From positions 1 to 46,516 of the forward strand of contig JASLKK010000014.1 of the NCBI GenBank assembly GCA_030747595.1: DNA of 46,516 nucleotides, in the 5' to 3' direction. Each line of letters opens with the position of its first letter. The first letter of the stretch is position 1. The notes under the pieces are model-generated. The model saw only the letters and a list, made by a program, of their open reading frames with translations. It was not told the DNA's origin and did not search any database. Source of the DNA: Acidimicrobiales bacterium (lineage in GTDB: Bacteria > Actinomycetota > Acidimicrobiia > Acidimicrobiales > MedAcidi-G1). Below are positions 6,966 through 42,941 of the stretch, piece after piece. The position numbers and the translations under genes are program-made.

Positions 6966-7042
6966 CCGTTGAGTGTGGATCGAACACACGCGCGATCGGT
7001 GGATGCCCGCTGATCTGCCCGGCGACCGGTACCGTCCGCCTT

Positions 7043-7294
7043 GTGGAACTTGCCGAAGTGCAGACGCTGGTGGAAGATCTTTACGGCGAGGTCGACCGGG
7101 CTCGGGGAATCCCGGCCTCCGTGGCCTGGCTCTGCGAGGAACTCGGCGAGCTGGCTCAGGCCACCCGTAAGGGCACGACCGAGCAGCAGCTCCACGAGTT
7201 GGGCGACGTGATGGCTTGGTTGGCCAGCTTGGCCAACCAATTGGGCTTGTCGCTGGACGAGGCGATGGCCCGCTATGTGACGGACCCTCCATAG
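7043..7294 (+). CDS. MazG-like nucleotide pyrophosphohydrolase (short form)
   Basis: 83 residues from GTG 7043. It carries the all-alpha NTP pyrophosphatase signature: EELGELAQA (E-E-x-x-E) and, 20 residues later, ELGDVMAWL (E-x-x-D), the acidic set that binds magnesium. This single small domain resembles MazG-like/dCTPase-type house-cleaning enzymes that remove non-canonical or excess NTPs. An upstream in-frame ATG at 6926 would add about 39 residues overlapping the divergent gene; the shorter GTG start matches the domain edge. Substrate nucleotide unknown. Confidence 0.75.
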   Translation: MELAEVQTLVEDLYGEVDRARGIPASVAWLCEELGELAQATRKGTTEQQLHELGDVMAWLASLANQLGLSLDEAMARYVTDPP

Positions 7295-7324
7295 ACCGGC
7301 CCCGGCAATAGGCCGGAATCGGGT

Positions 7325-8422
<1,098 letters not shown>

Positions 8423-9136
8423 CTATTTGGAAACGGGTGCGAAAAGGTCTGGCATCGACTCCATGATCGGAAAGCCGCGGCCACAGGCCTGATCGACGAA
8501 GGCCCCCAGACGTTGGGCCGACAGATCCAGGTCCCCGGCTTCGACCATCTGGGAGTCGAGCACGTAGGTGAAGACCAGGGCCTGAAGGCGCGGCATGGTA
8601 ACCGTCTCGGGGTTCAGGCGGTCCAGTTGGATTCCCAGATCGGCGTAGACCCGGTTCAACAGGCCCACGTCGGCTCGGAGCTCGGCGGGCACCCGGTTGT
8701 TGGTCCACGCCAGGAGGTTCCGGGTGGCCAGCAACAGGGCGTGTTGGCTGCGTGGATCCAAGAGGCCGTCGTCGGGCAGCACCCGCTCCACCTCGAGGAT
8801 CAACTCGCCGGACTCGACGGCCAACTCAGCGCAGAAACCAGCGGCCGCCTCGGGAATCGGTCCGCCAGCCAACGAGGTGGTCGGGGCAACGCTGGTCGAC
8901 GGCGCCATCGACGTCGAGGCAGGCACGGTGGTGCTCGGAGTCACCGTCATCGGGGGGGCCTCAGTGGTCGCGGGCGCCGACGTGGTAGCCGGGGTCTCTC
9001 CGATAGTCGTAGGGGGTGGGGCTGTCAGTGTCGACCCCCCACCACACGCCGATACCACCAGACTGGTTAGCGCGATCAAGACCGGCACCACAGTTCGTAA
9101 GACGGATCTGATCACCGCCGCGCCACCTTCCGACAT
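8423..9136 (-). CDS. Lipoprotein with Thr/Pro-rich linker, paralogue of the upstream gene
   Basis: 237 residues from the ATG at 9136. It has a lipoprotein signal ending in LVVSAC (Cys31), then a roughly 60-residue Thr/Pro/Ala/Ser linker, then a soluble domain beginning near GFCAELAVESGEL. The start shares one base with the stop of the preceding lipoprotein (TGATG), so the two are coupled; an ATG 9 nt upstream is the alternative. The segment AWTNNRVPAELRADVGLLNRV resembles AWLVDEVPPDLRDDAKLVRET in the upstream lipoprotein, so the domains appear homologous. No known family. Probably anchored on the outer face of the membrane. Confidence 0.75.
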   Translation of the reverse strand: MSEGGAAVIRSVLRTVVPVLIALTSLVVSACGGGSTLTAPPPTTIGETPATTSAPATTEAPPMTVTPSTTVPASTSMAPSTSVAPTTSLAGGPIPEAAAGFCAELAVESGELILEVERVLPDDGLLDPRSQHALLLATRNLLAWTNNRVPAELRADVGLLNRVYADLGIQLDRLNPETVTMPRLQALVFTYVLDSQMVEAGDLDLSAQRLGAFVDQACGRGFPIMESMPDLFAPVSK

Positions 9137-23398: not shown

Positions 23399-23414
23399 TC
23401 AGACTTGAGTCTGA
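23399..23414. promoter_or_regulatory. Perfect palindromic operator at the UGSC operon start
   Basis: TCAGACTTGAGTCTGA is a perfect inverted repeat with 7-bp arms and a 2-bp centre, a normal TetR-site size. Its last base is the A of the operon's ATG. A plus-strand promoter (TTGCCG 23377-23382, CAGACT 23400-23405, 17-nt spacer) would start transcription at the ATG, so the operator covers the -10 and start site of a leaderless mRNA. Confidence 0.65.
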
Positions 23415-24496
23415 TGAATGTAGACAGTCTAAACGACCCAACCTCCGTCCTGCTTCAAGTCGACGACGGTGCCGACCTAGTGAATGCACTAGCTGAACAC
23501 GGCTGGGGGGACGGCCTCCCCGTGATCGCCCCCACCCCCGAGCGGGTCGATGCCATGCTGGCCGGGAACCCCGGCGACGCTGTCATCGCCGTACTTCCCC
23601 CCCGCTTCGGCGAGGCCACCCGACGAACCCTGGCCATCAACGCGGTGATGGCCGGCTGCCTCCCAGCGCACCTCCCCGTCCTGGAAGCCGCCGTCAGGGC
23701 ACTGTCCCAACCCGAGCTGAACCTACGGGGGGTGAACGCGACGACCCACTGCGTGGCGCCACTGCTGATCGTCCACGGCGAAATAGCCCGCACCGCCGGC
23801 TACCACGGCGGCCTCGGAGCCTTCGGTCCCGGCAACCGGGCCAACGCCGCTACCGGTCGAGCCATGCGCTTGGTGCTCCTCCATGTGGCTGGAGCCACGC
23901 CCGGGGACGGCGACGCCTCCACTCAGGGCAGCCCAGCCAAATACGGCTACTGCGTGGCAGAAAATGTCGACGCCTCTCCGTGGCCCGCCTACCCGACAAC
24001 CATCGGCGTGGATACGGCCTCGGCGGTGACCGTGCACTGCGGTGAGGCGCCCCACAACGTGCATGACATGGAATCCGACGACCCGGCACGCATCCTCGAC
24101 AAGGTGGCCTCGGCCATGGCCACCACAGCCCAGAACAACGCCTGCATCAGCCAGGGCGAGTACCTGGTGGCGCTCTGCCCGGAGCATGCCGCCACATGTG
24201 CCGATGCCGGTTGGTCGCGTCGTGACGTGGTGTCCTACCTGTTTCAGAAGGCCCGCCTTCCGGCCGCCGAACTCAAGCGGGCATTCACCCTCCGAGCCTG
24301 GGAACCATGGATGGAACGGCTTGGCGACCACGACCCCGCTCCAATGACCGCCCACCCGGACAACATCCGGATCCTCGTGGTTGGTGGACCCGGCAAACAC
24401 AGTTCGGTGATTCCCAGTTGGGGCATGACCCAAAGCGTGACCCTGCCCATCCTTTCGAAGACCACCTGTCCAGAAGCAGGTCTCGACTCATGTTGA
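23414..24496 (+). CDS. Conserved WGDGLPV-motif protein, putative partner of the selenoprotein
   Basis: 360 residues from ATG 23414. Marked conserved-looking blocks: WGDGLPVIAPTPERV (31-45), VIAVLPPRFGEATRRTLAINAVMAGCLPAHLPV (57-89), GAFGPGNRANAATGRAMRLVL, and a Gly-rich LVVGGPGKHSSVIPSWG near the end. Ten cysteines (for example 82, 113, 180, 209, 244, 255, 262, 352, 360) could bind metal or take part in thiol/selenol chemistry. I recognise it as a conserved uncharacterised family found in environmental bacteria but know no function. There is no signal peptide. It overlaps the selenoprotein gene by 7 bp, strongly implying a two-subunit enzyme. The open frame upstream of 23414 is antisense to tetR and is rejected. 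Confidence 0.8.
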   Translation: MNVDSLNDPTSVLLQVDDGADLVNALAEHGWGDGLPVIAPTPERVDAMLAGNPGDAVIAVLPPRFGEATRRTLAINAVMAGCLPAHLPVLEAAVRALSQPELNLRGVNATTHCVAPLLIVHGEIARTAGYHGGLGAFGPGNRANAATGRAMRLVLLHVAGATPGDGDASTQGSPAKYGYCVAENVDASPWPAYPTTIGVDTASAVTVHCGEAPHNVHDMESDDPARILDKVASAMATTAQNNACISQGEYLVALCPEHAATCADAGWSRRDVVSYLFQKARLPAAELKRAFTLRAWEPWMERLGDHDPAPMTAHPDNIRILVVGGPGKHSSVIPSWGMTQSVTLPILSKTTCPEAGLDSC

Positions 24497-25023
24497 TCCA
24501 CCGGCCTGACGGCGACGTTGCCACGCCCCCAGCCCAGCGGGCTCCTTCGCCGACGGTGCTGGCCGGATGCCGTATTGGCATCCTGGACAACCGCAAGCCC
24601 AACGCCGACGTCCTGCTCGAGCAGCTAGCCAAGCGGCTCGCTGAGCGCACCGGAGCCACCGTGGTCCACACGGCAACCAAGAACGCTGCCATTCCCTGTG
24701 GGGATCAGGTTCTCGACCTACTAGCTGAGGAGGTCGACGTGATCCTCACCGGCACCGCTGATTGAGGAAGTTGTACGTCGTGGAGTGTCCACGACTCTGT
24801 GAAGCTCGAAGCAGCTGGCCGGCCCACCGTCCTGGTGGCGACTGGGGCCCTGCGGGAACTGGCTGACCAGACGGCCTACGACCTGGGCCTGGCTGACCTG
24901 CGGGTGGTCTCGGTGGCTCATCCGATCGGGGGCGTCGACCCTGACGAGATCCGGCGGCGGGCCGATGGCGTGGTCGACGAGGTACTGACGCTGCTCACCG
25001 TCACCACGGGAGGTAACCCATGA
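24490..25023 (+). CDS. UGSC-family selenoprotein (in-frame TGA at 24763 read as Sec)
   Basis: One continuous 177-residue frame from ATG 24490 to TGA 25021-25023, interrupted only by TGA at 24763-24765, codon 92. Around it the reading is VILTGTAD-U-GSCTSWSVHDSVKLE, the exact U-G-S-C motif for which this family is named. Before it is a Rossmann-like start (GCRIGILDNRKPNADVLLEQLAKRLAE); after it, homologous sequence continues at once (RPTVLVATGALRELAD, VVSVAHPIGGVDPDEIRRRAD). A hairpin 19 nt after the TGA fits a bacterial SECIS. Cys95 could form a selenenyl-sulfide with Sec92. It overlaps both neighbours by a few bases. A caller unaware of Sec would report 24490-24765 and a false second gene from GTG 24799. 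The family's function is unknown to me. The host must have SelA/B/C/D. Confidence 0.9.
24777..24795 (+). promoter_or_regulatory. Candidate bacterial SECIS hairpin
   Basis: GTCGTGGA (24777-24784) and TCCACGAC (24788-24795) pair perfectly around loop GTG (or a 7-bp stem with a 5-nt loop). The apical loop begins 19 nt after the TGA and has G at its first position, which meets the usual rules for bacterial SECIS elements (loop about 16-37 nt from UGA, G in the first two loop bases). It would bind SelB in the coding region. The stem lies within codons for conserved residues, so its strength beyond protein need is the telling point. Confidence 0.8.
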
Positions 25024-25871
25024 CCATCACCATTGACCATGGTGGCCGACGTGCACTGGTCACCGGTGCCGGTGCCGGCATCGGACGAGAGATCGCCCGC
25101 TGGCTGGCTCGCGCTGGGGCCGACGTGGCCGTCAACGACCTGGTGCCCGAGCGGGCCGAGGCCGTCGTCGCGGAGATCAACACCGAGGCCGGAACGTCAG
25201 ACGGTTCGGGTCGAGCAGTGGCTGTGCCCGCCGACTGCCGGGACGATGAGGCCGTGGAATCTCTGGTTACCGCCACCGTCGACCACCTCGGCGGACTGGA
25301 CCTCGCGGTCAACAACGTCGGAATGCTGCCCCCAGGGCGACGACCACAGCCCTTCGTGGCCAACCGGGCCGACGACTGGCGCGACATCGTCGACCAGAAC
25401 CTGGTCGTGGCTGCCCTGTGCGCCCGTGCCGAGGCCGAGGCCATGCTGCAGGCCAGCACCAACGGGTCGATCCTGTTCGTGACATCGGGTGAGACCACCC
25501 GGCCGGCGCCCTACAACGCGGTCTACGCCGCGGCGAAGGCCGCCATCAACCACTTGGTGACCACCATGGCGGTCGAGTTGGGTCCGAATGGGATCCGGGT
25601 GAATGCCATGGCCCCCGGGACCACACTCACCGAAATGGTGGCCCCCGCGTTCACCAAGGAACGAGTGACCGCTCTGGTGGCCTCGACACCTCTGCGGCGC
25701 ATGGTCGAACACGATGAGTTGGCCAGACTGGCCGTATTCCTCACCAGCGACCTGGCCCGGTGCATCACTGGACAGTTCGTGCTGGCTGATGCCGGGGCGT
25801 TCCTGTCCCGTAGCCGTCCGGCCAACGACGAGGGCTTGGTCAACCCACTGGGGGGCTCCAACGCCAGCTGA
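25020..25871 (+). CDS. SDR-family oxidoreductase (UGSC operon)
   Basis: 283 residues. Classical short-chain dehydrogenase: ALVTGAGAGIGREIA cofactor loop (TGxxxGxG), LAVNNVGM (the NNxG strand), catalytic Ser in FVTSGET, and Y-x-x-x-K in YAAAKAAINHL. Its C terminus (TGQFVLADAGAFL) is typical of NAD(P)-dependent alcohol/ketone enzymes. It starts within the stop codon of the selenoprotein (ATGA), so it is the third gene of the operon and probably acts on the same substrate or its product. Specific substrate unknown. Confidence 0.88.
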   Translation: MTITIDHGGRRALVTGAGAGIGREIARWLARAGADVAVNDLVPERAEAVVAEINTEAGTSDGSGRAVAVPADCRDDEAVESLVTATVDHLGGLDLAVNNVGMLPPGRRPQPFVANRADDWRDIVDQNLVVAALCARAEAEAMLQASTNGSILFVTSGETTRPAPYNAVYAAAKAAINHLVTTMAVELGPNGIRVNAMAPGTTLTEMVAPAFTKERVTALVASTPLRRMVEHDELARLAVFLTSDLARCITGQFVLADAGAFLSRSRPANDEGLVNPLGGSNAS

Positions 25872-30382: not shown

Positions 30383-33196
30383 TCAGGCGTCGTAGTTGTA
30401 CGCGGTGGCCTGTGGCTTGACCGGACGGGCCATCCATAGTGGGCGCCGCAGGTTCCCTGGTCCGGGCCCGGGCCGGGTCTTGGCCAACCACTCCTCAAAG
30501 ATTCGATGTGAGGCCGCGGTGTCGACCACGACGTCACCGTAGGCGTCGCCTTCCTCAGCGGGACCCACGGTGACCCGCTGCAGCCAGCAGTGCATCCCGC
30601 TGATCGGGTCAGGCTGCACGGGGAAGGTCAGGTTCTGGTGCACGCCGGTGTCGGTCCACCAGATCAGGCCGGTGTCCGGGTCGTCGCTCTCATAGGCCTC
30701 TGCTCCATGCTCGCGCCGCAGGCGCCAGCGACCGTCGTCGTCCTGTCCGATGGACGCCTTGCCGGCCCCCCAGGATCGGGCCTCATCCTCTTCGAGGCGC
30801 CACCGGCCCATGTGGTGGCTGGCCGCCACCACTCCGGGACGAATCCCCTCGGTCCGCCACGACTGGATCACGAAGTGGCCGGTCCGCGTGGTGATTCGCA
30901 CCAGGCCGTTCTCGTCAATGCCCAGTTGTTCGGCGTCCCCCGGGTGCAACCACAGCGGGTGTCGATGGCTGATCTCATTGAGCCACTGGCTGTTGGCGGA
31001 CCGGGTGTGTATGAGCGTCGGGATCCGGAAGGTCGGCACGAGGATCCGCTCTCCGGCCGTCATGTCCAGGTCCTCCCAGTGGACCTGGCTACGGATGAAC
31101 GCAGGCATCGAATACTCGGGCCAACCCCAGTCCCGGATGGTCTCTGAGAAGAACTCCAACTTCTTGGACGGCGTCGGGAAGCCGAACTTCGCCTCCCCGT
31201 CGATGTCCACGGCCGGTGAGCCGTCTCCGATGAATGGCATGTGGCCGGTGATCTCGTCTAGCGAGTTGTGCGAGCCAGCGGTGCCTGGGCGTCGCCACAC
31301 GCCAGCTGCATCGCGTACCGCTCCGTTCAGGTCGTCCTCGGACACCTCCCGCTCGTAGACCTGCGTCTGGTCGCCTGGCAGGGCGAACGATCCCTTGCGT
31401 CGCATGTACTCCAGCGGGGTCAGACCCTCTTTGGCCGCTGCCTCGGGCAGCCCGGGGACCGAACCCTCGAACAGCATCGAGTAGTACTCGTCGAGGCTGA
31501 GCGGGGCGCCCGGATCAGTCTGGCTCTCGAACTGCTGGCGGATGCCGAGCGCCCCGTCGGGGTCGATCCGCCACGACAGGTCGATCCAGAACTCCTGCTC
31601 CTCCCACACCTCGCCCGGGTTGGCCTCATGCGTGCGCTCGAAGGTCTCGCCCTCTAGTTCGCGATGGCGACGGTTCACGGGTTGGCGGAAACCGATCCAT
31701 CGCCCGTTGTGGGTCTCAAAGCTGGATACGTCGTGGCGTTCGGACGCTATGCCCATTGGCAGCACGTAGTCGGCGAACCACGCTGACTCGTTCCATGTCG
31801 GGGTGAGCGCCACGTGGCAGCCGACGAGCTCCGGGTCGCGCAGCACCTCCATCCAGGTGAACCCGTCTGGGTTGGTCCACAGCGGGTTGTAGACCCGGGT
31901 GAAGTAGGTATCGATGCGGCCCCGACCGGCCTTCAGGAAATGGGGCAGCAGAATCGACAGCTCATGGTGGCTGAGCGGGTACTCGATCGGCCACTGCATC
32001 TCATTCCACCGGGCCTGGGGCTTGGGGTGGATCGGGGTGACGGGGATGAACTTGTTCCACCCGTTGGCGTTGGTGCCACCCTCGGTGCCGACCGATCCAG
32101 TCAGCACGTTCAGGAACTGCAGGCAGCGGGCCACCATCCAGCCACCCTCGTTGCCGGCTGACGAGGCCCTCCATGTGTGCGACGCGAACTTTCCAAGGCC
32201 GTCGCCGATGACCTTGGCCACCTCGAGGATCTGGTCCTCGTGGAGGCCGCACACCCGTGCCGCCTCGGCCGGGGTGTACTCGGCATACTGGTCGATGAGG
32301 GCCTGGCGAACGTTGGCGAAGTTGGGCTCCAGGTCAGGTCGGGCCTCGGTGAGGAAGGTCTCCCAGTTGACCCACCGCTCGAAGAAGTCGGCGTCCCAGG
32401 TGTCGTCGACCAGCAGCAGCCGGGCAATGGCCAGCAGCATGAACGCTTCGGTGCCGGGCCACGGTGACATCCAGTGGTCAGCCTTGGCCGCCGTGTTGGA
32501 GAGTCGCGGATCGACGCAGATGACCGTGGCGCCGTTCTTCTGGCCCTCGATGATCCGTTGGGCGTGCGGGTTGAAGTAGTGGCCGGCCTCGAGGTGCGAC
32601 GAGATGAGGAAGATGACCTCGGCGTTGGCGAAGTCGGCCGAAGGGCGGTCGAAGCCCATCCACGACGCGTAGCCCACCCGGGCACCGCTGGAACAGATGT
32701 TGGTGTGGCTGTTGTGGCCATCGATGCCCCAGCTGTGGAGGACCCGCTCCATGTAGCTGTCGTCGCCCATCCGACCAACGTGGTACATGATCTCGTCGTG
32801 GCGGTCCTCGCGTAATGCCGTGCCGATCCGATCACCGATCTCGTCGAGCGCCTGATCCCACGAGATCTGTTCCCAGAGGCCTTCGCCCCGATCGCCCACA
32901 CGCTTCATGGGATGCAGGATCCGCTCGGGGTCCTCGGCCTGGTTGATGGTGGCCGGACCCTTGGCGCAGTTGCGGCCGCGGCTCGCCGGATGCACGGGGT
33001 TTCCCTCGAATTTGGTGATCTTTCCGGTGTCCTTGTCCACCCATGCCAGCAATCCGCAGTTGGCCTCACAGTTGAAGCAGGTGGTCGGCACCAGACGATG
33101 GGCGCGACGCACCTTGGTGGGCCAGGCGGTCGGGTCGAGGGACTCGACGTGGTCCCACGACTCTTCGGGCGGGTAGGCGGACAGGGTCTCGGTCAT
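30383..33196 (-). CDS. Molybdopterin oxidoreductase catalytic subunit (SoeA-like)
   Basis: 937 residues from ATG 33196. An N-terminal 4Fe-4S site has Cys40, Cys43, Cys47 and Cys77 (CFNCEANC...NCAKG), then three molybdopterin domains. ICSSGARVGYASWMG (Cys168) is the likely Mo-ligand loop. There is no Tat twin-Arg signal, so the enzyme faces the cytoplasm. It pairs with a four-cluster ferredoxin/NrfD partner, as in complex iron-sulfur molybdoenzymes. Cytoplasmic sulfite dehydrogenase SoeABC fits this layout and the neighbouring taurine-type genes. Alternatives are a polysulfide/thiosulfate-type reductase or a formate-dehydrogenase relative; no Sec is present. The reading on substrate is inference. 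Confidence 0.85.
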   Translation of the reverse strand: MTETLSAYPPEESWDHVESLDPTAWPTKVRRAHRLVPTTCFNCEANCGLLAWVDKDTGKITKFEGNPVHPASRGRNCAKGPATINQAEDPERILHPMKRVGDRGEGLWEQISWDQALDEIGDRIGTALREDRHDEIMYHVGRMGDDSYMERVLHSWGIDGHNSHTNICSSGARVGYASWMGFDRPSADFANAEVIFLISSHLEAGHYFNPHAQRIIEGQKNGATVICVDPRLSNTAAKADHWMSPWPGTEAFMLLAIARLLLVDDTWDADFFERWVNWETFLTEARPDLEPNFANVRQALIDQYAEYTPAEAARVCGLHEDQILEVAKVIGDGLGKFASHTWRASSAGNEGGWMVARCLQFLNVLTGSVGTEGGTNANGWNKFIPVTPIHPKPQARWNEMQWPIEYPLSHHELSILLPHFLKAGRGRIDTYFTRVYNPLWTNPDGFTWMEVLRDPELVGCHVALTPTWNESAWFADYVLPMGIASERHDVSSFETHNGRWIGFRQPVNRRHRELEGETFERTHEANPGEVWEEQEFWIDLSWRIDPDGALGIRQQFESQTDPGAPLSLDEYYSMLFEGSVPGLPEAAAKEGLTPLEYMRRKGSFALPGDQTQVYEREVSEDDLNGAVRDAAGVWRRPGTAGSHNSLDEITGHMPFIGDGSPAVDIDGEAKFGFPTPSKKLEFFSETIRDWGWPEYSMPAFIRSQVHWEDLDMTAGERILVPTFRIPTLIHTRSANSQWLNEISHRHPLWLHPGDAEQLGIDENGLVRITTRTGHFVIQSWRTEGIRPGVVAASHHMGRWRLEEDEARSWGAGKASIGQDDDGRWRLRREHGAEAYESDDPDTGLIWWTDTGVHQNLTFPVQPDPISGMHCWLQRVTVGPAEEGDAYGDVVVDTAASHRIFEEWLAKTRPGPGPGNLRRPLWMARPVKPQATAYNYDA

Positions 33197-33229
33197 CTCA
33201 GGCTCCGGTGAGGTCAAGGGAGGCGGTAG

Positions 33230-34777
33230 CTACGAGAGGGGGACCGACTGGCCGGCCCGGACGTAGGCGTCCTCGTAGGCGAACAGGCCGTACAGCGCAG
33301 CCAGGGGAACAATGGGCTGGACTGGGCCGGTCCAGTCGAACACGAAATTGCCCAGCAAAATATCCAGACTCAGGAACAACATCGCGAACACAGTGCAGAA
33401 GAGCCACTCGCGCCACCGCTTCTTCTGGTCCCCATGACGCAGGTCAGCGAGCGCCATGGTCACGTGTCGGGAGTGGCCACCGCGGAACTCGGCGCCGACA
33501 AGGGCGGCGTTGGCCGTCAGACCAGCCAGAAACAGCCACTTGACTGATTCGTGGGACGGCACGTCGAGGAACTGATCGAACAGCGACCACGAGGCCCCAC
33601 CGGCCATGACGGCCTGGGCCAACAGGATGGGCAACAACAGGGGTTCCTGCCAGAGATCACGACCCTCGCACTGACCGAAGAGGAAGGCCGTGTAGCCCGC
33701 GGTACCCAGTGCCAGCAGCACGGTTGGCACCACGAGCACCGGGAGCACACCACCGGCATCAGCCAGGCCGGCCACCCACCACGCGGCCAGACAGACGGCG
33801 AAGGCGCCCAGCACCCACGCCCCCTTGACCAGCCACGAGGTCCAGTTGCCCTTCATCAGCAGGTACCAGAACCGCTTCGGCTGCTTGAGGTCACCGACCA
33901 GCAGGACGCCGGTCAGCACCAGGAAGACTCCGGCCACCAGCGGCGGAACCACACTGACCACCGATCGCTCGTCACCGTGGCCTAGCACCACCAACAGCGA
34001 GGCGACCAGCATCACGCCCGCCGCAATGGCCTTCGTCACCAGGTAGCCCGACACCATCGAACCCCAGACCGGCGGGTGCTGGGTGGTGTAGGCGGTTCGG
34101 GCCATGGGCTCGCCGTCGTCCCTGGTGGGCGCGACAGTCAGAGCCACCGGTGTGGGCGTGGAGTGACCGGGGGTGGTGTCGGCCCAGATCAACCCGTCGT
34201 CGGAAATGGCTGAGGCGAGCGGGTCCAACGACGAGGCGGTGGCCCCCCTGTAGATGACTTTGGGCCGGGTGTTCTGCTCCGGCGACCGCACCAGGCCCCC
34301 GTCGGCGTGCAGCCGGCTGATCTCACTGCCCGGATCGTCGAGGTCGCCCACCCGGATGGCCTGGGTGGGGCACACGATCACGCACGACGGCTCGAGGCCG
34401 TCCTCGATCCGGTGGTTACAGAAGTTGCACTTGTGGGCGGTATTGGTTTCGGGGTTGAGATAGATGGCGTCGTAAGGGCAGGCGTTCATGCATGCCTTGC
34501 AGCCAATGCAGTCGTCGTCCTGGAAGTCGACCACGCCGTTGTCGGCCCGATACAGCGCCGACGTGGGACAGATGGTCATGCACGGAGCGTCTTCGCACTG
34601 GTTGCACCGCATAACCGAGAACAGCCTGTCGGTGTCGGGGTGGGTGCCCGTCTCCACGTATTTGAGCCACGTGCGGTTCACACCCAGCGGCACGTTGTGC
34701 TCGCTCTTGCAGGCCACCGTGCAGGCATGGCAGCCGATGCAACTGCTGGAGTCGAGGACGAATCCGAGGCGAGTCAC
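33230..34777 (-). CDS. Fused four-cluster ferredoxin and NrfD-type membrane anchor (SoeB-SoeC-like)
   Basis: 515 residues from GTG 34777. The first 145 residues hold 16 cysteines in four clusters: 13/16/19/23, 58/61/66/70, 90/93/96/100 and 117/120/132/136, the DmsB/PsrB pattern. After a linker of about 100 residues come roughly eight membrane helices with the NrfD-like DLKQPKRFWYLLMKGNWTSWLVKGAWVL segment. It passes electrons between the molybdenum subunit and membrane quinone. In most genomes these are two genes; here they are one polypeptide. Its start overlaps the TetR stop (GTGA), and the catalytic gene begins 33 bp after its end. Confidence 0.85.
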   Translation of the reverse strand: MTRLGFVLDSSSCIGCHACTVACKSEHNVPLGVNRTWLKYVETGTHPDTDRLFSVMRCNQCEDAPCMTICPTSALYRADNGVVDFQDDDCIGCKACMNACPYDAIYLNPETNTAHKCNFCNHRIEDGLEPSCVIVCPTQAIRVGDLDDPGSEISRLHADGGLVRSPEQNTRPKVIYRGATASSLDPLASAISDDGLIWADTTPGHSTPTPVALTVAPTRDDGEPMARTAYTTQHPPVWGSMVSGYLVTKAIAAGVMLVASLLVVLGHGDERSVVSVVPPLVAGVFLVLTGVLLVGDLKQPKRFWYLLMKGNWTSWLVKGAWVLGAFAVCLAAWWVAGLADAGGVLPVLVVPTVLLALGTAGYTAFLFGQCEGRDLWQEPLLLPILLAQAVMAGGASWSLFDQFLDVPSHESVKWLFLAGLTANAALVGAEFRGGHSRHVTMALADLRHGDQKKRWREWLFCTVFAMLFLSLDILLGNFVFDWTGPVQPIVPLAALYGLFAYEDAYVRAGQSVPLS

Positions 34778-35349
34778 GAGGCCCCTGGGACCATCTGGTG
34801 GATACCGGCACACAACAGGTCGACCAGGCGGTCGAAGCTCTCGTCGAGGTCGACGGGATGAGGGTGGCCGTCACCGGACTCGAGGTGGGCGAAGCCGTGG
34901 AGGGCGCTTCGCATCGACCGGGCGGCGTGCACCCGGTCGACGTCGGCCAGCCCATAGGCGACCAGCGCCTGACCCAGAACGGCTACGACCCGTTCAACGG
35001 CCTCTTCCAGCTCCGCGTCACCGGCACACGGGTAGCGGTCGGTGGCTGCGTAGAGGCCCGGGTGGTCACCGACCATGGCCCGCCAGGCCCGACCCATGGC
35101 CCGAACCGCGTCGTCGCCAGCCAGACCCACGGCGGCCTCGCCGAGTCGGCTTGCCAGGATCTCACGGCCCCGGAGTCCGAGTGCCCGGACGAGGGCGTCG
35201 TAGCTGTCGATGTGCCGGTACAGGGCAGGCTGACGGACCCCGAGCAGCAAGGCCACCCGGGTGAGGGTCACGGCATCAAGGCCTTCGGAGTCGGCCAGTG
35301 CAGCCGCCGAATCCACGACCTGATCGGTGTCCAACGTCCGGCGGCTCAT
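34774..35349 (-). CDS. TetR-family regulator, first gene of the molybdoenzyme operon
   Basis: 191 residues. Helix-turn-helix at about 7-48 (LDTDQVVDSAAALADSEGLDAVTLTRVALLLGVRQPALYRHIDSYDAL) and a C-terminal WHG-like domain (GHPGLYAATDRYP, then RSMRSALHGFAHLE). Unlike the other TetR genes here it is co-directional and coupled (GTGA) to the structural genes, so it should autoregulate the operon. Upstream lies an imperfect inverted repeat at 35364-35378. Confidence 0.85.
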   Translation of the reverse strand: MSRRTLDTDQVVDSAAALADSEGLDAVTLTRVALLLGVRQPALYRHIDSYDALVRALGLRGREILASRLGEAAVGLAGDDAVRAMGRAWRAMVGDHPGLYAATDRYPCAGDAELEEAVERVVAVLGQALVAYGLADVDRVHAARSMRSALHGFAHLESGDGHPHPVDLDESFDRLVDLLCAGIHQMVPGAS

Positions 35350-36263: not shown

Positions 36264-37205
36264 TCAGGTGCCGATAGCGCCGCTTGAGCGCGCCTGCAGC
36301 CCGGCGATGACCGCCACGTCGACGATGTCAGCCGCCGAACAGCCCCGCGACAGATCGTGCAGGATCCCGTCCAGCCCCTGGAGGAGCGGCCCATAGGCCC
36401 GGGCGCCGCCGAGGCGCTCGGTGACCTTGTAGGCGATATTGCCGCTGTCCAGGTCGGGGAACACGAAGACGTCCGCCGCGCCGGCCACCGGTGACCCAGG
36501 GGCCTTGACGGCCGCCACGGAGGGAACGATCGCCGCGTCGAACTGCAGCTCTCCGTCGACGGTCAGATCGGGCCGCCGGTCGGCGACCAGTGCCGTGGCG
36601 GCCCGCACCTTGTCCACCCGGGGATGTTCGGCACTGCCCTTCGTCGAAAAAGAGAGCATGGCCACCCGGGGTAAACCGCCCCCGGAGACTGGACCGGCCA
36701 ACCCGGTCCAGGTGTCGGCCGTCGAGGAGGCGATGGTGGCCAACTGGGACACATCGGGGTCGGGCACCACGCCGCAGTCTCCGTAGGCCACCAACCGGCC
36801 ATCGGCCAGAACCATCAGGAAGCAGCTCGAAACCATCTCCACTCCGGGGGCCACCCCCAGAACCTTGAGTCCGGCCCTTAGGACGTCGGCCGTCGACCGG
36901 GTGGCCCCGGCCACCGCGGCGTCAGCTGCTCCGGATCGCACCAGCACTGTGGCCGCCACGATCGGGTCGCTCACGTCTAGGCCTGCATCCTCGGCCCTGG
37001 CGATCGCTTCGGCCTGTTGACCGTCGCTACGGTCCACGATCGGATGGACGGGCTGCACAAGCTCTTCGTCCACCAACTGGATGGCCGCGAAGTCGGCTCG
37101 GGGGTCACCTAGATCAGCCAGCACCACCCGCGCCGGATCTGTCGCAGCCAGCTCGTACCACCCGGAAACAACCGCCGGGACGTTTGAACTCCCCGGGGAA
37201 CTCAC
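36264..37205 (-). CDS. pta: Phosphate acetyltransferase
   Basis: 313 residues from GTG 37205, a single PTA_PTB domain. Family marks: AIARAEDAGLDVSDPIVAATVLVRSGAADAAVAGATRSTADVLRAGLKVLG, then SCFLMVLADGRLVAYGDCGVVPDPD, GELQFDAAIVPSVAAVKAPGSPVAGAADVFVFPDLDSGNIAYK and ERLGGARAYGPLLQG. It interconverts acetyl phosphate and acetyl-CoA. In taurine and isethionate pathways it handles the acetyl phosphate released by Xsc. The frame is open far upstream through the permease gene, but that part is out of family. TTG 37232 is an alternative start overlapping the permease stop. Confidence 0.9.
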   Translation of the reverse strand: MSSPGSSNVPAVVSGWYELAATDPARVVLADLGDPRADFAAIQLVDEELVQPVHPIVDRSDGQQAEAIARAEDAGLDVSDPIVAATVLVRSGAADAAVAGATRSTADVLRAGLKVLGVAPGVEMVSSCFLMVLADGRLVAYGDCGVVPDPDVSQLATIASSTADTWTGLAGPVSGGGLPRVAMLSFSTKGSAEHPRVDKVRAATALVADRRPDLTVDGELQFDAAIVPSVAAVKAPGSPVAGAADVFVFPDLDSGNIAYKVTERLGGARAYGPLLQGLDGILHDLSRGCSAADIVDVAVIAGLQARSSGAIGT

Positions 37206-37228
37206 CGGGCGGGAATCTCCGGATGAGC

Positions 37229-38092
37229 TCAACCCTTGCCACGCCAAGGGATGAGGCGCCGCTCCAGGAAACGCATGGCCAGGTCCATGGCCACACCGAT
37301 GACCCCGATGACGATGATCGACACGACTACGACATCCATCCGGAAGAACTTCGAGGCAGCAAAGATCATTGCTCCGAGGCCGGTGGTCGTCCCGGTCAAC
37401 TCGGCGGCCACCAGGGTTCCCCAGCACACACCGAGGGCGACCCGCATGCCGGTGAATATGTCTGGCAGCGCGTTGGGGAGAATCACGTACCGCAGGATCT
37501 GCCACTTGTTGGCACCCAGGGAATAGGCGGCGTGGACCTTCGAGCCCCGCACGCCGAGTACCCCGGCCCGAGCCGCGATGACCATGATCCATACCGCAGC
37601 GAAGAACAAGAGGTTGACCTTGGAACCCTCGCCGATGCCGAACCACACGATGAACAGCGGCAGCAGGGCCAGAGGTGGCACAGGACGCAGCAACTCGACG
37701 ATGGGGTCGAAGATGCCCCGTAGCCGGTTGGACAGGCCCATGGCGAAACCGACGGGCACACCCACGATCACCCCGTAGACGAGACCCTTGAGGACCCGCC
37801 AGAGACTGGCCCACGTGTGGTCCCACAGGCTGACCCGGCGGTAACCGTCGGTCGCCAACTCGACGAAGGCGTCCCACGTCTGACGCATCGATGGGAACGT
37901 CCGGTCGTTGATCATCGGTTCGGTTCCGCTCTTGATCCACCACCAGATGAAGGCCACGAACAGCAGTGAGGCGACGCTCCAAAGCGGGGAACCCTTGACC
38001 TCCGAGGCATCGCCGAAGGTCACGGTCTTGCGGCCACTGGCCCCCTTGCGAACCGCTCCCGCGTGGCCGGCGAGCCTGCTGGGGATGCTCAC
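37229..38092 (-). CDS. ABC transporter permease, TauC/SsuC type
   Basis: 287 residues with six membrane helices and the BPD_transp_1 EAA loop (AAYSLGANKWQILRYVILPNALPDIFTGMRVALG). The N terminus is a soluble extension of about 35 residues. The taurine/sulfonate/nitrate permease family imports small organic anions. It overlaps the ATPase gene by ATGA. A matching periplasmic receptor (TauA) is not found nearby. Confidence 0.88.
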   Translation of the reverse strand: MSIPSRLAGHAGAVRKGASGRKTVTFGDASEVKGSPLWSVASLLFVAFIWWWIKSGTEPMINDRTFPSMRQTWDAFVELATDGYRRVSLWDHTWASLWRVLKGLVYGVIVGVPVGFAMGLSNRLRGIFDPIVELLRPVPPLALLPLFIVWFGIGEGSKVNLLFFAAVWIMVIAARAGVLGVRGSKVHAAYSLGANKWQILRYVILPNALPDIFTGMRVALGVCWGTLVAAELTGTTTGLGAMIFAASKFFRMDVVVVSIIVIGVIGVAMDLAMRFLERRLIPWRGKG

Positions 38093-38895
38093 GACACACC
38101 TCCATCGTGGCCCATGATCTGCTCCTCCATCTCCCAGATGAGCGACAGCAACTCCTCGCGCTTCTCGATGAACTCGGGCGAGGCTTTCATCTCACGGGGA
38201 TCGACGTGGAGCCCCTTGGCCGCGAACGGCAACTCGTATTCGCGCTCCACGCGACCCGGACGCGGAGCCATCACGAAGAGGCGATCACCCAGGTAGAGGG
38301 CCTCCTCCACGCTGTGGGTGACCAGAACGATCGTCTTGCCCGTCTCCTGCCAGAGCTTCAGGATGAGACTCTGCATCTTCTCCCTGGTGAGGGCATCGAG
38401 GGCACCCAACGGCTCGTCCATGAGGATGATCTCAGGATCGTTGGCGAGGCATCGGGCCAGGGCGACCCGCTGCTGCATGCCACCGGAGAGTTCGTAGACC
38501 GCCTTGTCGCCGAAGCCCTGCAGACCCACCGTGGCCAGCAGGTCCTGGACCAACTCGTTGGTCTCGGATCGCTTCTTTCGGTTCATCCGGGGTCCAAAGG
38601 CCACGTTCTGAGCCACCGACTGCCACTCAAACAGGGCGCCCTGCTGGAAGACCATGCCCCGCTCTTGGCCGGGCCCCCTGATGGGGTCGCCACCGAGGGT
38701 TACCGACCCCGACGTGGGAGCCAGGAAGCCGGCGATGATGTTGAGCAACGTCGTCTTGCCGCACCCGGAGGGCCCAAGCAGCGTCAGCAACCGCCCGGCC
38801 TCGAGGTCGAACGAGACGTCGTGCAAGGCCTGAACCGAGCCACCCTTCGGCAACTCGTAGACCATGCCCAGCCCCTCGACTGAAAGATTCTTCAC
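38089..38895 (-). CDS. ABC transporter ATPase, TauB/SsuB type
   Basis: 268 residues from GTG 38895. Walker A GPSGCGKTT (41-49), Q-loop VFQQGALFEWQSVAQNVAFG, signature LSGGMQQR (136-143) and Walker B IILMDEP. The PGQERGMVFQQ segment is typical of TauB. The roughly 40-residue C-terminal extension after the core is longer than usual. It powers the neighbouring permease. The operon position after a taurine-type aminotransferase suggests a sulfonate or amino-sulfonate substrate. Confidence 0.9.
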   Translation of the reverse strand: MKNLSVEGLGMVYELPKGGSVQALHDVSFDLEAGRLLTLLGPSGCGKTTLLNIIAGFLAPTSGSVTLGGDPIRGPGQERGMVFQQGALFEWQSVAQNVAFGPRMNRKKRSETNELVQDLLATVGLQGFGDKAVYELSGGMQQRVALARCLANDPEIILMDEPLGALDALTREKMQSLILKLWQETGKTIVLVTHSVEEALYLGDRLFVMAPRPGRVEREYELPFAAKGLHVDPREMKASPEFIEKREELLSLIWEMEEQIMGHDGGVS

Positions 38896-38946
38896 GTTTC
38901 GGTCCCCCTCAGTACCGGTGTCGTTCCCCGACCGATCCCTGTCGGT

Positions 38947-40317
38947 CTAGTCGTTGTCGCCCAGCCATGCATCGACCCGGTCGATCACCCGGTCGATCCG
39001 GGCCACCAGGTCGTCGATGATCGCACGGTCTGCGACCAGCGGTGGCGAGATGGTCAGGCCGGTGTAGCCACGATCATCGGGCCGCACCGTCATCCGCTCT
39101 TCGCGGACGAAGCCGCCCAACGCCCCGCCCCGCAGGCCGGTCTCCTGGGTGGGGCTGAGGTCGCGGTCGTCAGCCGAGTCAGCGCAAAGGTCCACGGCGT
39201 AGAAGTAGCCGGTGCCCCGAACCTCGCGGACCGACCGATGGGCACCACCCATCGCCTGCAACTGCTCGGTGAAGTAGCCCTCGTTGTCCAGCACATGCTG
39301 CAACACGCCCTCGTCACGCATGGCAGTCATGTTGGCCACGGCCACCGCAGTGGCCACCGGATGCCCACCGAACGTCGAGCCGTGCACGTACGAACCCATG
39401 GGCGAGTCGAACAGCTCCTCGACCAGCTGGCCACGGATGACCACCCCGCCGAGCGGCTGGTAGGCAGAAGTAACGCCCTTGGCGAAGGTGATCATGTCGG
39501 GCACCACGTCCAGACGCTCGCTGGCGAACCAGTGGCCGAACCGACCGAACGAGCAGATGACCTCATCGGCCACCAGCAACACGCCATACCGGTCGCAGAT
39601 GCGACGAAGCTCCTGCCAGTAGCCGTTGGGCGGCACCAGGGCACCACCACCGTTCTGAACCGGTTCGCCGATAACCATCGAGATGGTCTCGGGGCCCTCG
39701 GCCAGAATCATCTCCTCGATGGCCTGCACACAGGACAGTTCTGCGGCCGGGGTGCCGACCGGAGAGGTGCACTCACGGGTATTGGAGACATGGCGGGTGC
39801 CGTCCCACAGCATCGGCAGATACGGATCCCGGAACTTGGGGATACCGGTGACCGAAAGCGCCCCCAGCGTCGTGCCGTGGTAGGCCCAGTTACGAGAGAT
39901 GACCTTGTAGCGAGCCTCGTCTCCCCGGGCCAGGTGATAGTTGCGGGCGAACTTGATGGCCGACTCCACAGCTTCGGACCCCGAGCTCACGAAGAACGTC
40001 TCGCTCAGATCCCCAGGGGCAAAGCCGGCGATCATCTCCGCGGCCTCAATGGCTGGCGGGTGAGCGAACCCCCAGTTGGTGGAGTAGGCAAGCTTGTTCA
40101 TCTGCTTGGCCGCCGCGTTCGATAGATCGGGCCGACCGTGACCGATGTTCACGCAGAACAGACCGGCTAGGCCATCGAGGTACTCGACTCCGTCGGCGTC
40201 GTAGAGGTAGCAGCCCTCAGCTCGTTCGATGATGGGCAGGGCATCGTTCTGCCATGCCGCCTTCGGTGTGAAGTGGGGTACGAGATGCTTCTGGGCGAGT
40301 TCTCGATGGGTGCTCAT
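38947..40317 (-). CDS. Class III pyridoxal-phosphate aminotransferase, taurine/omega-amino acid:pyruvate type
   Basis: 456 residues from ATG 40317; an upstream start at 40347 is possible. PLP-site features: FFVSSGSEAVESAIKFARNYH, WAYHGTTLGALSVTG, VVLLVADEV-type strand (GVLLVADEVICSFGRFG) and the lysine in MITFAKGVTSAYQPLGG. The GLAGLFCVNIGHGRPDL start is shared with taurine:pyruvate and beta-alanine/omega-amino acid:pyruvate aminotransferases. First gene of the operon with TauB/TauC-like, pta and DMT genes, which favours taurine or a related omega-amine. Exact substrate is inferred from context. Confidence 0.85.
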   Translation of the reverse strand: MSTHRELAQKHLVPHFTPKAAWQNDALPIIERAEGCYLYDADGVEYLDGLAGLFCVNIGHGRPDLSNAAAKQMNKLAYSTNWGFAHPPAIEAAEMIAGFAPGDLSETFFVSSGSEAVESAIKFARNYHLARGDEARYKVISRNWAYHGTTLGALSVTGIPKFRDPYLPMLWDGTRHVSNTRECTSPVGTPAAELSCVQAIEEMILAEGPETISMVIGEPVQNGGGALVPPNGYWQELRRICDRYGVLLVADEVICSFGRFGHWFASERLDVVPDMITFAKGVTSAYQPLGGVVIRGQLVEELFDSPMGSYVHGSTFGGHPVATAVAVANMTAMRDEGVLQHVLDNEGYFTEQLQAMGGAHRSVREVRGTGYFYAVDLCADSADDRDLSPTQETGLRGGALGGFVREERMTVRPDDRGYTGLTISPPLVADRAIIDDLVARIDRVIDRVDAWLGDND

Positions 40318-40365
40318 GGATCCTCCGCTGGGGATGCGGTCGTACACTGCGCGGACCGGTCGTAG

Positions 40366-40400
40366 GTGACTGGCGTCACTGACGTTAGAGCCTGTAACGT
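40366..40400. promoter_or_regulatory. Two palindromes in the divergent aminotransferase/DMGDH region
   Basis: GTGAC-TGGC-GTCAC (40366-40379) and ACGTTA-GAGCCTG-TAACGT (40382-40400) are perfect inverted repeats side by side in the 176-bp gap between the divergent genes. They are plausible operators that could tie both directions to one regulator, for example the MarR protein at 42938-43459. Confidence 0.5.
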
Positions 40401-40493
40401 AATCGCTAAGTCTTCTAACAGCAAGGGCCCGGAGCGACGACCCCCCAACCGGGCGGAAACACCGGCAACCCGAGATCCCCGGAGTCCCTCCAC

Positions 40494-42941
40494 ATGGCCA
40501 AACAGATCCCCGAGCGGGCCCAGGTCGTCATCATCGGTGGTGGCATCGTGGGTGCCAGCATCGCCTACCACCTCACCGAGTTGGGTTGGACCGACGTCGT
40601 CCTACTGGAACGCAACACGCTAACCAGCGGCACCACCTGGCACGCCGCTGGCCTCGTGGGCTGCCTTCGGGCCACCCAGAACATGACCCGACTGGCCGCC
40701 TACTCCGCCGAGTTGTACGAGTCCCTCGAGCGCGACATGGGACATGCAACCGGCTTCAAGAAGGTCGGATCGCTCAGCGTCGCCGACAACCCGGAACGCA
40801 TGGAGGAGTTGGTGCGCGGTGCCGGCATGGCCAACACGTTCGACGTTGAGGTGGAAGTCATATCCGCTGACGACCTGTGCGCCCGCTATCCGCTGTTGAA
40901 CCCCGACGGCATCGTGGGAGGTGTCTGGCTACCCGGCGACGGTCAGGCCTCGCCAGTGGACACCACCATGGCCATGGCCAACGTGGCCAAGGAGAGGGGC
41001 GCCCGGATCTTCGAGGGCGTATCCGTCGAACACATCCGCACCACCGATGGCCAGGCGGTCGGCGTCGACACCGACCAGGGACCCATCGACGCCGAGCACG
41101 TGGTCACCGCGGCCGGCATGTGGTCCCACCAATTGGGCCGTGACGTGGGAGTCAACATTCCGCTGCACGCCTGTGAGCACTTCTATCTGGTGACCGAACC
41201 GATCCCCGATCTGCCCTCTGGCCTGCCGGTGCTGCGCGACACCGACAACTGCATCTACGTCAAGGAAGAGGCCGGTCGGCTCATGGTCGGGGCCTTCGAA
41301 CCAGTGGCTAAGCCGTTCGGCATGGCCGGCATTCCCACTGACCGTCCGTTCATGCAGCTAGACGAGGACTGGGACCACCTCGCCCCGGTCTATGAGGCGG
41401 CCTGTGAACGCCTTCCCGTACTCGAGAACATGGGCATCCGACTGTTCTTCAACGGCCCAGAGTCGTTTACCCCCGACGACCGCTACCTGCTCGGCGAGAC
41501 CCCTGAACTTCGCAACCACTGGGTGGCCACCGGGTTCAACTCGATAGGGATGCAGTCAGCCGGGGGTGCCGGAAAGGTACTGGCCGAGTGGATGGTCCAC
41601 GGTCGGCCACCAATGGACCTGTGGGACGTCGACGTCCGACGCATGCAACCCTTCCAGACCAACCGGCGCTATCTCCACGATCGTTCTGTGGAGGCCCTCG
41701 GCCTGCTGTACGCCATGCACTGGCCATTCCGCCAGGTCGAGACGGCCCGCGGTGTACGCCACTCGCCGTTCCACGACCGTCTGGCCGACCTCGGTGCCTG
41801 CCATGGCGAAGGCGGCGGCTGGGAACGACCCAACTGGTACGCCCCCGAGGGCGTGGAGCCGACCTACGAGTACACATTCGGTCGCCAGAACTGGTTCGAG
41901 TACTCGGCCGACGAGCATCGGGCGTGCCGAGAGGGCGCGGCGCTGTTCGACCAGACCTCGCTGGCCAAGCTGCTCGTCCAGGGACCGGACGCCTGCGCCG
42001 TGCTGAACCGGATCTCGTCGGCCGACGTGGACGTCGAACCAGGCACGTCGGTGTACACCACATGGCTGAACGACCGGGGCGGCATCGAAGCCGACCTGAC
42101 CGTCAACCGCCTCGACGACCACCGCTTCCTGGTGGTGACCGCCTTCTCTACCCAGATCAAAGACGCTGACTGGATCTCGCGCCATACCCCCGACGACGCC
42201 CGCATGACGGTCACCGACGTGACCTCCGCCTGGGCCGTCCTGGGCGTCTTCGGACCCGAGGCCCGCAACATCGTGGCGCCACTGACCGACGCCGACCTGT
42301 CCAACAAAGCCTTCCCGTTCGGCACCCTCCAGGAAATCGACCTCGGCTACGCCCGTTCCATCGCCGTGCGCCGCACCTACATGGGGGAGCTGGGTTGGGA
42401 GCTGTACGTACCCACCGAGTTCGCCCTCGGGGCCTTCGACGCACTCTGGGAATCCGGTGAACCACGGGGTCTCACGCCGGCCGGCTACCACGCCATGAAC
42501 TCACTGCGCATGGAGAAGGCCTACCGCCACTGGGGCGACGACATTGCCGAGGAGGACACCCCCCTCCACGCCGGCCTGTCGTGGGGCGTCGCATTCGACA
42601 AGCCGGGTGGCTTCATCGGCCTCGATGCCTTGATGGCCCAGCGCGAAACCGGGGTGGATCGACGCCTCGTGCAGTTCCGCCTCGACGATCCAGCGCCGCT
42701 GCTCTACCACGACGAACCCGTGTACCGCGACGGCGTCCTGGTCTCGAGGATTACCTCGGGCATGTACGGCCACACGATCGGCGGCGCCCTGGGCATGGGC
42801 TACGTGGGATGTGAGCCCGACACCCCCCGCGCCCAGGTAATCGAAGGCACCTTCGAAGTCGACGTGAACGGCACCCGAGTTCCGGCAACCGCCTCATTCC
42901 GCCCGTTCTACGACCCAGACAGCAGCCGGGTGCGCCTCTAG
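40494..42941 (+). CDS. Dimethylglycine dehydrogenase-like FAD/folate oxidoreductase
   Basis: 815 residues. N-terminal FAD-binding DAO domain (VVIIGGGIVGAS, residues 11-22) with TSGTTWHAAGLVG, where His50 is the likely covalent FAD site as in DMGDH and sarcosine dehydrogenases. An FAO_M-type middle follows, then a C-terminal GcvT folate-binding half (from about 440: NWFEYSADEHRACREGAALFDQTSLAK, YMGELGWELYVPTEFALGAFD). It would demethylate N-methylated glycines or related amines, passing the methyl as formaldehyde to tetrahydrofolate. Divergent from the aminotransferase. Its stop shares CTAG with the convergent MarR gene. Confidence 0.9.
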   Translation: MAKQIPERAQVVIIGGGIVGASIAYHLTELGWTDVVLLERNTLTSGTTWHAAGLVGCLRATQNMTRLAAYSAELYESLERDMGHATGFKKVGSLSVADNPERMEELVRGAGMANTFDVEVEVISADDLCARYPLLNPDGIVGGVWLPGDGQASPVDTTMAMANVAKERGARIFEGVSVEHIRTTDGQAVGVDTDQGPIDAEHVVTAAGMWSHQLGRDVGVNIPLHACEHFYLVTEPIPDLPSGLPVLRDTDNCIYVKEEAGRLMVGAFEPVAKPFGMAGIPTDRPFMQLDEDWDHLAPVYEAACERLPVLENMGIRLFFNGPESFTPDDRYLLGETPELRNHWVATGFNSIGMQSAGGAGKVLAEWMVHGRPPMDLWDVDVRRMQPFQTNRRYLHDRSVEALGLLYAMHWPFRQVETARGVRHSPFHDRLADLGACHGEGGGWERPNWYAPEGVEPTYEYTFGRQNWFEYSADEHRACREGAALFDQTSLAKLLVQGPDACAVLNRISSADVDVEPGTSVYTTWLNDRGGIEADLTVNRLDDHRFLVVTAFSTQIKDADWISRHTPDDARMTVTDVTSAWAVLGVFGPEARNIVAPLTDADLSNKAFPFGTLQEIDLGYARSIAVRRTYMGELGWELYVPTEFALGAFDALWESGEPRGLTPAGYHAMNSLRMEKAYRHWGDDIAEEDTPLHAGLSWGVAFDKPGGFIGLDALMAQRETGVDRRLVQFRLDDPAPLLYHDEPVYRDGVLVSRITSGMYGHTIGGALGMGYVGCEPDTPRAQVIEGTFEVDVNGTRVPATASFRPFYDPDSSRVRL

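Follow-up and report, generated by a model that had tools for sequence, protein, structure and literature searches.

The stretch of DNA considered here, hereafter the window, comprises 46,516 nucleotides of contig JASLKK010000014.1 from assembly GCA_030747595.1 of an Acidimicrobiales bacterium, and contains a gene of the UGSC family of selenoproteins that overlaps the genes on either side of it. The UGSC gene (24490..25023, plus strand) is a read-through open reading frame (ORF) that begins with the ATG at 24490, ends with the TGA at 25021-25023 and holds a single internal TGA at 24763..24765 (plus strand), predicted to encode selenocysteine (Sec) at position 92 of a 177-residue product, in a D-U-G-S-C motif formed by residues 91-95. 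The product exceeds the cut-offs of both family models, NF041046 UGSC_fam (138.2 bits, cut-off 125) and PF24696 (162.3 bits, cut-off 25), and since these matches cover residues 26-170 and 6-170, respectively, both span the TGA. A preliminary description of this DNA had reported the same frame, with its one internal TGA, overlapping neighbours and apparent homology on both sides of the codon, all of which our coordinates and model matches confirm; its warning that the gene could be called as two was equally apt, for translation table 11 terminates the frame at 24765 and the risk of such a mis-call is real.

The gene upstream (23414..24496, plus strand), here called the partner, encodes 360 amino acids from the ATG at 23414, a longer frame from the ATG at 23237 being possible, and its stop codon (24494-24496) overlaps the UGSC start. 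Downstream, a gene for an oxidoreductase of the short-chain dehydrogenase/reductase (SDR) family (25020..25871, plus strand) overlaps with its start the UGSC stop codon (ATGA) and is likely translationally coupled to it. These overlaps of start and stop codons suggest that partner, UGSC and SDR form one translationally coupled operon.

The family itself was already in print in 2008, if not before, as uncharacterised in the passages devoted to it in the 2008 Global Ocean Sampling (GOS) paper, a table of which has 255 UGSC sequences; the corresponding part of a 2021 update puts it at 8.2% of selenoprotein genes, and the section concerned of a 2026 review lists it among largely uncharacterised families. 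In metagenomes of aquatic origin, the family ranks among the most abundant selenoproteins. The "new enzyme" of the preliminary description must accordingly be narrowed, and the functional enzyme is probably the pair formed by UGSC and the upstream partner, of which that description made no mention. The parts that could be new are the kinship with GrdB and PrdB, which is not stated in those published passages on UGSC selenoproteins that were consulted, the near-constant partner, and the fold.

Decoding of the internal UGA

The UGA is very probably read as Sec, and the gene an intact selenoprotein gene rather than a broken one, given the Sec machinery of the genome, a hairpin of the selenocysteine insertion sequence (SECIS) type, homologues with cysteine and the family models. 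In the window assembly (2.46 Mb in 84 contigs, completeness 95.9%), selB and selA adjoin each other on contig C2, which also bears tRNA-Sec (66.9 bits), and selD is present as well (G000:C4:97516-98439, L011), all over their cut-offs; selD has one in-frame TGA and, judging from its sequence, probably encodes a selenoprotein itself. A second UGSC gene in this genome, on contig C3, likewise has one TGA. Across 396 genomes of the phylum, the family was matched at E <= 0.001 in 29 and over the cut-off in 27. Exactly one in-frame TGA occurs in 36 of the 44 over-cut-off matches and none in the other 8, two of which are fragments beginning after the Sec site, while Cys was confirmed at the Sec place in four. 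An alignment of 27 UGSC proteins has TGA at the U of the motif in 23 and a Cys codon in four (L021, L038, L041, L042). SelA was over the cut-off in 22 of the 23 genomes with TGA forms (the miss being G036), in 1 of 3 with Cys forms only and in 4 of 20 without the family (Fisher p 5e-7 for TGA-form against family-free genomes), a comparison of 26 of the 29 matching genomes (G136, G196 and G271 omitted) with the 20 non-matching ones listed first, not drawn at random.

The stop-free length across the TGA was dropped as evidence: 85 codons of such composition stay open by chance with p ~0.13, and it is thus homology, not openness, that carries the case for Sec. That a Cys gene has suffered a nonsense mutation or been misread in sequencing, an explanation that could draw on the Cys at the Sec position in the relatives L038, L041 and L042, has a negligible probability beside the complete machinery (selA, selB, selD and tRNA-Sec), the second TGA-bearing copy, the covarying hairpin described below and the one TGA shared by those 36 family matches, which in practice already refutes it. 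Hence the earlier assignment to the UGSC selenoproteins is strongly supported, and the checks proposed with it, a search for Cys in place of the TGA and for Sec machinery, both gave positive results; homologues ending at the TGA, which it had named as a sign of a nonsense mutation, were not found.

The hairpin (24777..24795, plus strand), recognised by folding, covariation and comparison with a published model of bacterial SECIS (bSECIS) elements, has an 8 bp stem and a 3-nt loop, GUG (24785-24787), 19 nt from the UGA. It lies within the bSECIS limits given in the relevant passages of PMC13188914 (loop of 3-9 nt, stem of 4-16 bp, G in the first two loop positions, spacing of 16-37 nt, minimum free energy <= -7.5 kcal/mol), the 35 nt after the UGA folding at -12.5 kcal/mol. 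Energy alone makes a weak case, with a z of only -2.1 against shuffles (10 of 200 equal it, and 16 of 200 in another run), and the mean energy of 60-nt stretches did not differ between the 23 TGA and 4 Cys loci. The case is instead borne by the covariation score and by the contrast between Sec and Cys forms. Pair cells are kept to 96% over 23 TGA loci against 62% over 83 Cys loci (which include two repeats, L067 = L041 and L069 = L042), and all eight pairs are intact in 18/23 against 1/83, a contrast biased in favour of the TGA loci because the structure was derived from their sequences. The covariation score of the TGA-locus alignment, 0.130, was matched by 1 of 500 shuffles and lay above all slid versions; changes on both sides of a pair affect 2 of the 8 pairs, as many as 35 of 500 shuffles reach. 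The window provides one compensatory case: where most relatives have a Cys codon TGC and a G at the partner position, it has Trp98 (TGG) paired with a Val codon GTC, so that the pair is restored by a synonymous change.

Within the motif, U/C92, G93 and C95 are invariant in all 27 aligned proteins and the Ser varies. A third Cys, making U-x-x-C-x-x-C, occurs in 19/27 and, in a wider set, in 35/106; the window protein has Trp98 in its place. A tree of 106 UGSC proteins requires at least six changes of the Sec label, four of them forced by well-supported branches, and 0 of 500 label shuffles gave a number as low as 6; the window gene and L024 (Sec) hold basal positions with respect to a clade of 24 Cys proteins. 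The proportions of Sec and Cys on this tree carry no meaning, since the Cys rows stem mostly from a search with a Cys pattern: 79 Cys loci were retrieved with one Cys-containing peptide pattern and are Cys forms by construction. The full set of 110 loci includes the two repeats already mentioned and, as L027, the window itself. Members were found in actinobacteria, proteobacteria and haloarchaea, and many UGSC-bearing hosts are aerobes. The UGSC proteins of three records titled as metagenome-assembled genomes (MAGs) of Bifidobacterium breve (L055, L063, L065) cluster with records of Actinomycetota or Actinobacteria MAGs, and these titles look mislabelled.

The partner protein

The partner, of some 350 codons (~350), is adjacent to or fused with UGSC in 106 of the 110 loci. 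It precedes UGSC in 61 and follows it in 20, and in 25 the two share a single frame, UGSC first, without a stop between them, which on sequence we read as fusions; all 25 fall within one 26-protein clade of the UGSC tree. The four loci without the full pair are L046 and L047, with the partner but no UGSC by this search, and L048 and L049, with neither, which are family matches below the cut-off. In the passages of the 2008 GOS paper on the family, UGSC is fused to a domain named "Unknown_1", probably the partner. Among the 396 genomes, the partner is present in 27 of the 27 with UGSC over the cut-off and in 3 of the 369 without (Fisher p 8e-39), where the 27/27 is in part a matter of construction, the partner profile having been built from UGSC-adjoining loci, but the rarity elsewhere is not. 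The three UGSC-free genomes are G183, with four strong matches, and G192 and G351, with one weak match each. The four copies in G183 (G183:C272:193-2079 and 6990-9071) lie two to an open frame, in frames of equal length, in a genome with no listed UGSC match, and are probably tandem fusions. Extra pairs of partner and a divergent UGSC occur at L054:4373-5988 and in L081, each on the same stretch as another pair.

An alignment of the partner (A4), built on 103 of 108 partner-matching loci (L027, L046, L079, L096 and L111 omitted) plus the window copy, taken and numbered from Asn2 (23417), reveals conserved residues D32, G33, P35, C81, D166, K175, C179, E182 and H257. Asp32, Gly33, Pro35, Asp166, Glu182 and Gly323 are invariant in the 104 rows, Cys81 is kept in 95 and Cys179 in 94, and a pattern search of the rows found no W/F-C-x-x-C motif. 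No Pfam or NCBIfam family was matched apart from scattered weak hits, set aside as each was common to at most 5 of the 104 members; the best were the thioredoxin model TIGR01068, at 3.7e-4 in a single member, and PF20963, at 6.3e-4 in two. Sequence searches of the PDB gave no convincing relative, and the AlphaFold2 (AF2) model (pLDDT 92.4) had no Foldseek match at E <= 0.001. Weak Foldseek matches to class I fumarase and cyclic amide hydrolases, and a resemblance to chorismate mutase-like chains (Z 6.5 over ~88 residues), were too weak to use, and kinship with GrdE was rejected (hhalign probability 0.2%), in a comparison made with GrdE itself and not with PrdA.

Kinship and fold of the Sec domain

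Computation supports a remote relationship between the Sec domain of UGSC and the Sec half of GrdB and PrdB, as far as sequence profiles can tell. GrdB, GrdF (of sarcosine reductase), GrdH and PrdB are the selenoprotein B subunits of the glycine, sarcosine, betaine and D-proline reductases, selenium enzymes that cleave amino acids. At E <= 1, the NCBIfam models matched by the 27 UGSC proteins included glycine GrdB (TIGR01917; 18 proteins, best 1.2e-6), GrdF (18, best 1.2e-5), TIGR01918 (5, best 1.2e-6), GrdH (4, 2.7e-6) and PrdB (4, 0.0018). The window protein matched GrdF (0.0084), an acetyltransferase (0.025), PrdB (0.031) and glycine GrdB (0.084), all weakly, and is filed as a remote relative rather than a member because its scores lie far under the curated cut-offs (11.8 bits against 602.2 for TIGR01917 and 13.7 against 300 for TIGR04483, TIGR01918 not being listed). 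In the reverse direction, the UGSC model matched 2 of 8 PrdB-like proteins (best 2.9e-4) and, at E <= 0.01, 0 of 9 GrdB-like ones. An hhalign comparison of 106 UGSC with 17 GrdB/PrdB-like sequences (L143 and L147 excluded from the PrdB-like alignment) gave a probability of 94.7%, P 6.3e-8 and a score of 54.7, which was still 48.9 with the motif masked, the two motifs then being offset by at most one residue. Column shuffles, 100 in all, reached at most 28.0, Asp/Glu racemases 21.8 and B12-binding proteins 16.9, and the latter two were rejected as relatives by profile. An untrimmed UGSC profile scored 57.2 with GrdB/PrdB, against 37.7 for the best of 44 unrelated neighbour clusters, and Sec aligned on Sec with this profile and with a shallower one. 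It is on these deeper alignments and the independent NCBIfam models that the kinship was accepted.

PF07355 (GRDB) was listed for none of the 27 UGSC proteins; this model ends immediately before the Sec codon, so that searches with it miss the Sec half. All 19 extended GRDB matches (from 20 loci, L139 having the N-terminal half only) have an in-frame TGA at or just past the end of PF07355, and a segment of the window genome (G000:C4:37278-37637) matches the C-terminal part of PF07355, which is the region that relatives carry in short PrdB-like selenoproteins.

Searched by sequence against the PDB, UGSC gave no convincing relative (best 0.0029 and 0.023, both to the ATPase ARSA1), and GrdB none at E <= 0.1. 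In the AF2 model of UGSC, built with Cys for Sec (pLDDT 91.6), strands and helices alternate and residue 92 sits between the third strand and the next helix, immediately ahead of the latter. Foldseek matches include TIR, lumazine synthase and flavodoxin chains, with TM-scores by query length of at most 0.51 among the matches listed; those from VIA-align include, at Z 11.6, a designed protein, at 11.2 a chain of the methyl-CoM reductase activation complex, at 10.8 and 10.4 two B12-type photoreceptor proteins and, at up to 9.9, many receiver domains. The predicted structure thus leans towards a Rossmann- or flavodoxin-like fold and against the thioredoxin-like one suggested for UGSC in passages of the 2008 GOS paper and the 2026 review, although the absence of thioredoxin folds from the match lists excludes nothing.

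Genomic context and proposed function

Neighbouring genes were delimited with a simple ORF caller and clustering rather than a trained gene finder. Genes resembling thioredoxin (Trx) or thioredoxin reductase (TrxR) lie near 9 of the 79 Cys-form loci, across a range of taxa. In L091, L092, L095 and L097 such a gene is found immediately downstream, and L086 and L097, according to Pfam, and L087, judged by its motifs, have a TrxR-Trx fusion; L086, L091, L092 and L097 were checked by Pfam, the others by clustering and motifs. In 14 of 100 loci, among them the window, a same-strand SDR follows UGSC directly, and recurrent neighbours are genes for amidohydrolase-2, CoA-transferase III, acyl-CoA dehydrogenase, enoyl-CoA hydratase and AMP-ligase. 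L024, the closest relative (57% identity, Sec), has parts of a betaine-type ABC transporter near its locus, L152. Such neighbourhoods suggest small-molecule catabolism. In the window, a TetR-like regulator (PF13305; 22789..23355, minus strand) is divergent, and its cluster recurs upstream of L069 and L070. Farther away are, on the minus strand at 30383-34813, a molybdopterin oxidoreductase and, after it, a membrane protein in which 4Fe-4S and NrfD parts are fused, and, at 36264-42941, a cluster of phosphate acetyltransferase, a class III aminotransferase and a protein with DAO and GCV_T domains resembling dimethylglycine/sarcosine dehydrogenase, possibly a taurine or betaine route.

We consider it slightly more probable than not that UGSC is the Sec subunit of a reductase with two subunits that acts on a small organic molecule; the enzyme would resemble PrdB but have no pyruvoyl partner. 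For PrdB itself, the mechanism proposed in the passages concerned of PMC3091704 has Sec attack the substrate held by the pyruvoyl group of its partner, with breakage of a C-N bond, after which the selenoether is cleaved by a Cys residue of PrdB, giving a selenide-sulphide, to be reduced by PrdC or, in glycine reductase, by TrxR, Trx and GrdA. By analogy, the UGSC partner would bind and present the substrate; the selenolate of Sec92 (or thiolate, where Cys replaces it), sitting at a helix N-terminus, would attack it and cleave a carbon-heteroatom bond; Cys95 would resolve the adduct into a selenide-sulphide; thioredoxin or another dithiol donor would regenerate the Sec92-Cys95 centre; and the downstream SDR may handle a neighbouring carbonyl or alcohol step of the same catabolic route. 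UGSC would work like PrdB without being a PrdB, since no GrdE-type subunit was found in the genome and the partner is unrelated to GrdE, and for the same reason substrate activation must differ from that of the pyruvoyl enzymes. The redox pair of Sec92 and Cys95 put forward in the preliminary description fits this scheme and is plausible if indirect: it is favoured by U/C-x-x-C in 27/27 proteins, the GrdB/PrdB kinship and the Trx genes near some Cys forms, though these genes lie near none of the Sec loci examined.

Several results weigh against a PrdB-like role. The shallower profile of 27 UGSC sequences scored 36.3 with PrdB-like proteins (probability 59%) and 32.9 with GrdB (26%), but the 39 decoy clusters included a Rossmann dehydrogenase at 39.0 and CaiB at 32.9; as that decoy outscored PrdB, the kinship was not accepted from this profile, and it is clear only with deeper profiles and curated models. 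Unrelated models match UGSC as well, the strongest being PRK08931 in 6 of the 27 proteins (best 5.3e-5) and PRK02186 in 1 (0.0016). The GrdB-like third Cys is present in just 35 of 106 and absent from the window protein, and a search of the window genome with PF09338 (GrdE) gave 0 matches. Thioredoxin genes were seen near 0 of the 21 Sec loci examined (of 23 TGA loci, L044 and L045 being omitted), several of whose contigs end within 10 kb, and the counts of such neighbours stand without a background rate. Finally, the neighbouring genes speak of catabolism in general, not of one substrate.

Two other functions deserve consideration. UGSC could be a non-redox racemase, lyase or transferase, with Sec or Cys as nucleophile or acid/base and the partner as the other half of the active site, as the Rossmann-like fold, the catabolic neighbours (CoA-transferase, enoyl-CoA hydratase, acyl-CoA dehydrogenase, amidohydrolase) and the interchange of Sec and Cys on the tree (6 changes) would allow; the invariant second Cys of U-x-x-C, the thioredoxin-system neighbours of some Cys loci and the lack of clear profile similarity to the Asp/Glu racemase family make this unlikely. 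Less likely still is a thiol/selenol oxidoreductase of thioredoxin-like fold acting on protein disulphides or peroxides, with the partner as protein substrate or regulator: the U-x-x-C motif suits it, but in the AF2 model strands and helices alternate with Sec after the third strand, the structural matches are of flavodoxin-like, receiver and B12-binding type, and the profiles lead to GrdB and PrdB, no thioredoxin model being listed for the 27 UGSC proteins.

Taken as a PrdB-like reductase, UGSC with its partner may tentatively be regarded, from sequence, as a third kind of selenolate-based reductase cleaving C-X bonds, beside the glycine/sarcosine/betaine and D-proline reductases, in which the Sec domain is of common descent with theirs and an unclassified partner replaces the pyruvoyl subunit. 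Its Sec forms would, just as tentatively, belong to actinobacteria; Cys forms and fusions would also occur in proteobacteria, and unfused forms in haloarchaea. Kinship, partner and a possible thioredoxin link together pose a concrete question for assay, namely reductive cleavage by two proteins, and, if the proposal is true, the reductive-cleavage chemistry of selenolates would not be confined to Stickland fermenters.

With the UGSC family as described (NF041046, PF24696) the window gene agrees in passing both cut-offs over nearly its full length, in its U-G-S-C and in its paired gene, but it has Trp where 19/27 members (35/106 in the wider set) have the third Cys, and an SDR directly downstream. 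With GrdB, GrdF, GrdH and PrdB (TIGR01917, TIGR01918, NF040794, NF040795, TIGR04483) UGSC shares a remotely homologous Sec domain, Sec on Sec. U-x-x-C is common to UGSC and the PrdB-like set, the following helix ends in Leu-Glu-x-x-G-x-P in both, and the extended U-x-x-C-x-x-C found in some UGSC proteins is, in the passages of the 2026 review on it, the motif of GrdB. UGSC differs in lacking the long N-terminal part of GrdB and in a partner unrelated to GrdE. As to redox supply, glycine reductase is served by a thioredoxin system (TrxR, Trx, GrdA, GrdB), and Trx and TrxR-like genes lie near some UGSC-partner genes, seen in Cys-form loci only (9 of 79, against 0 of 21 Sec loci).

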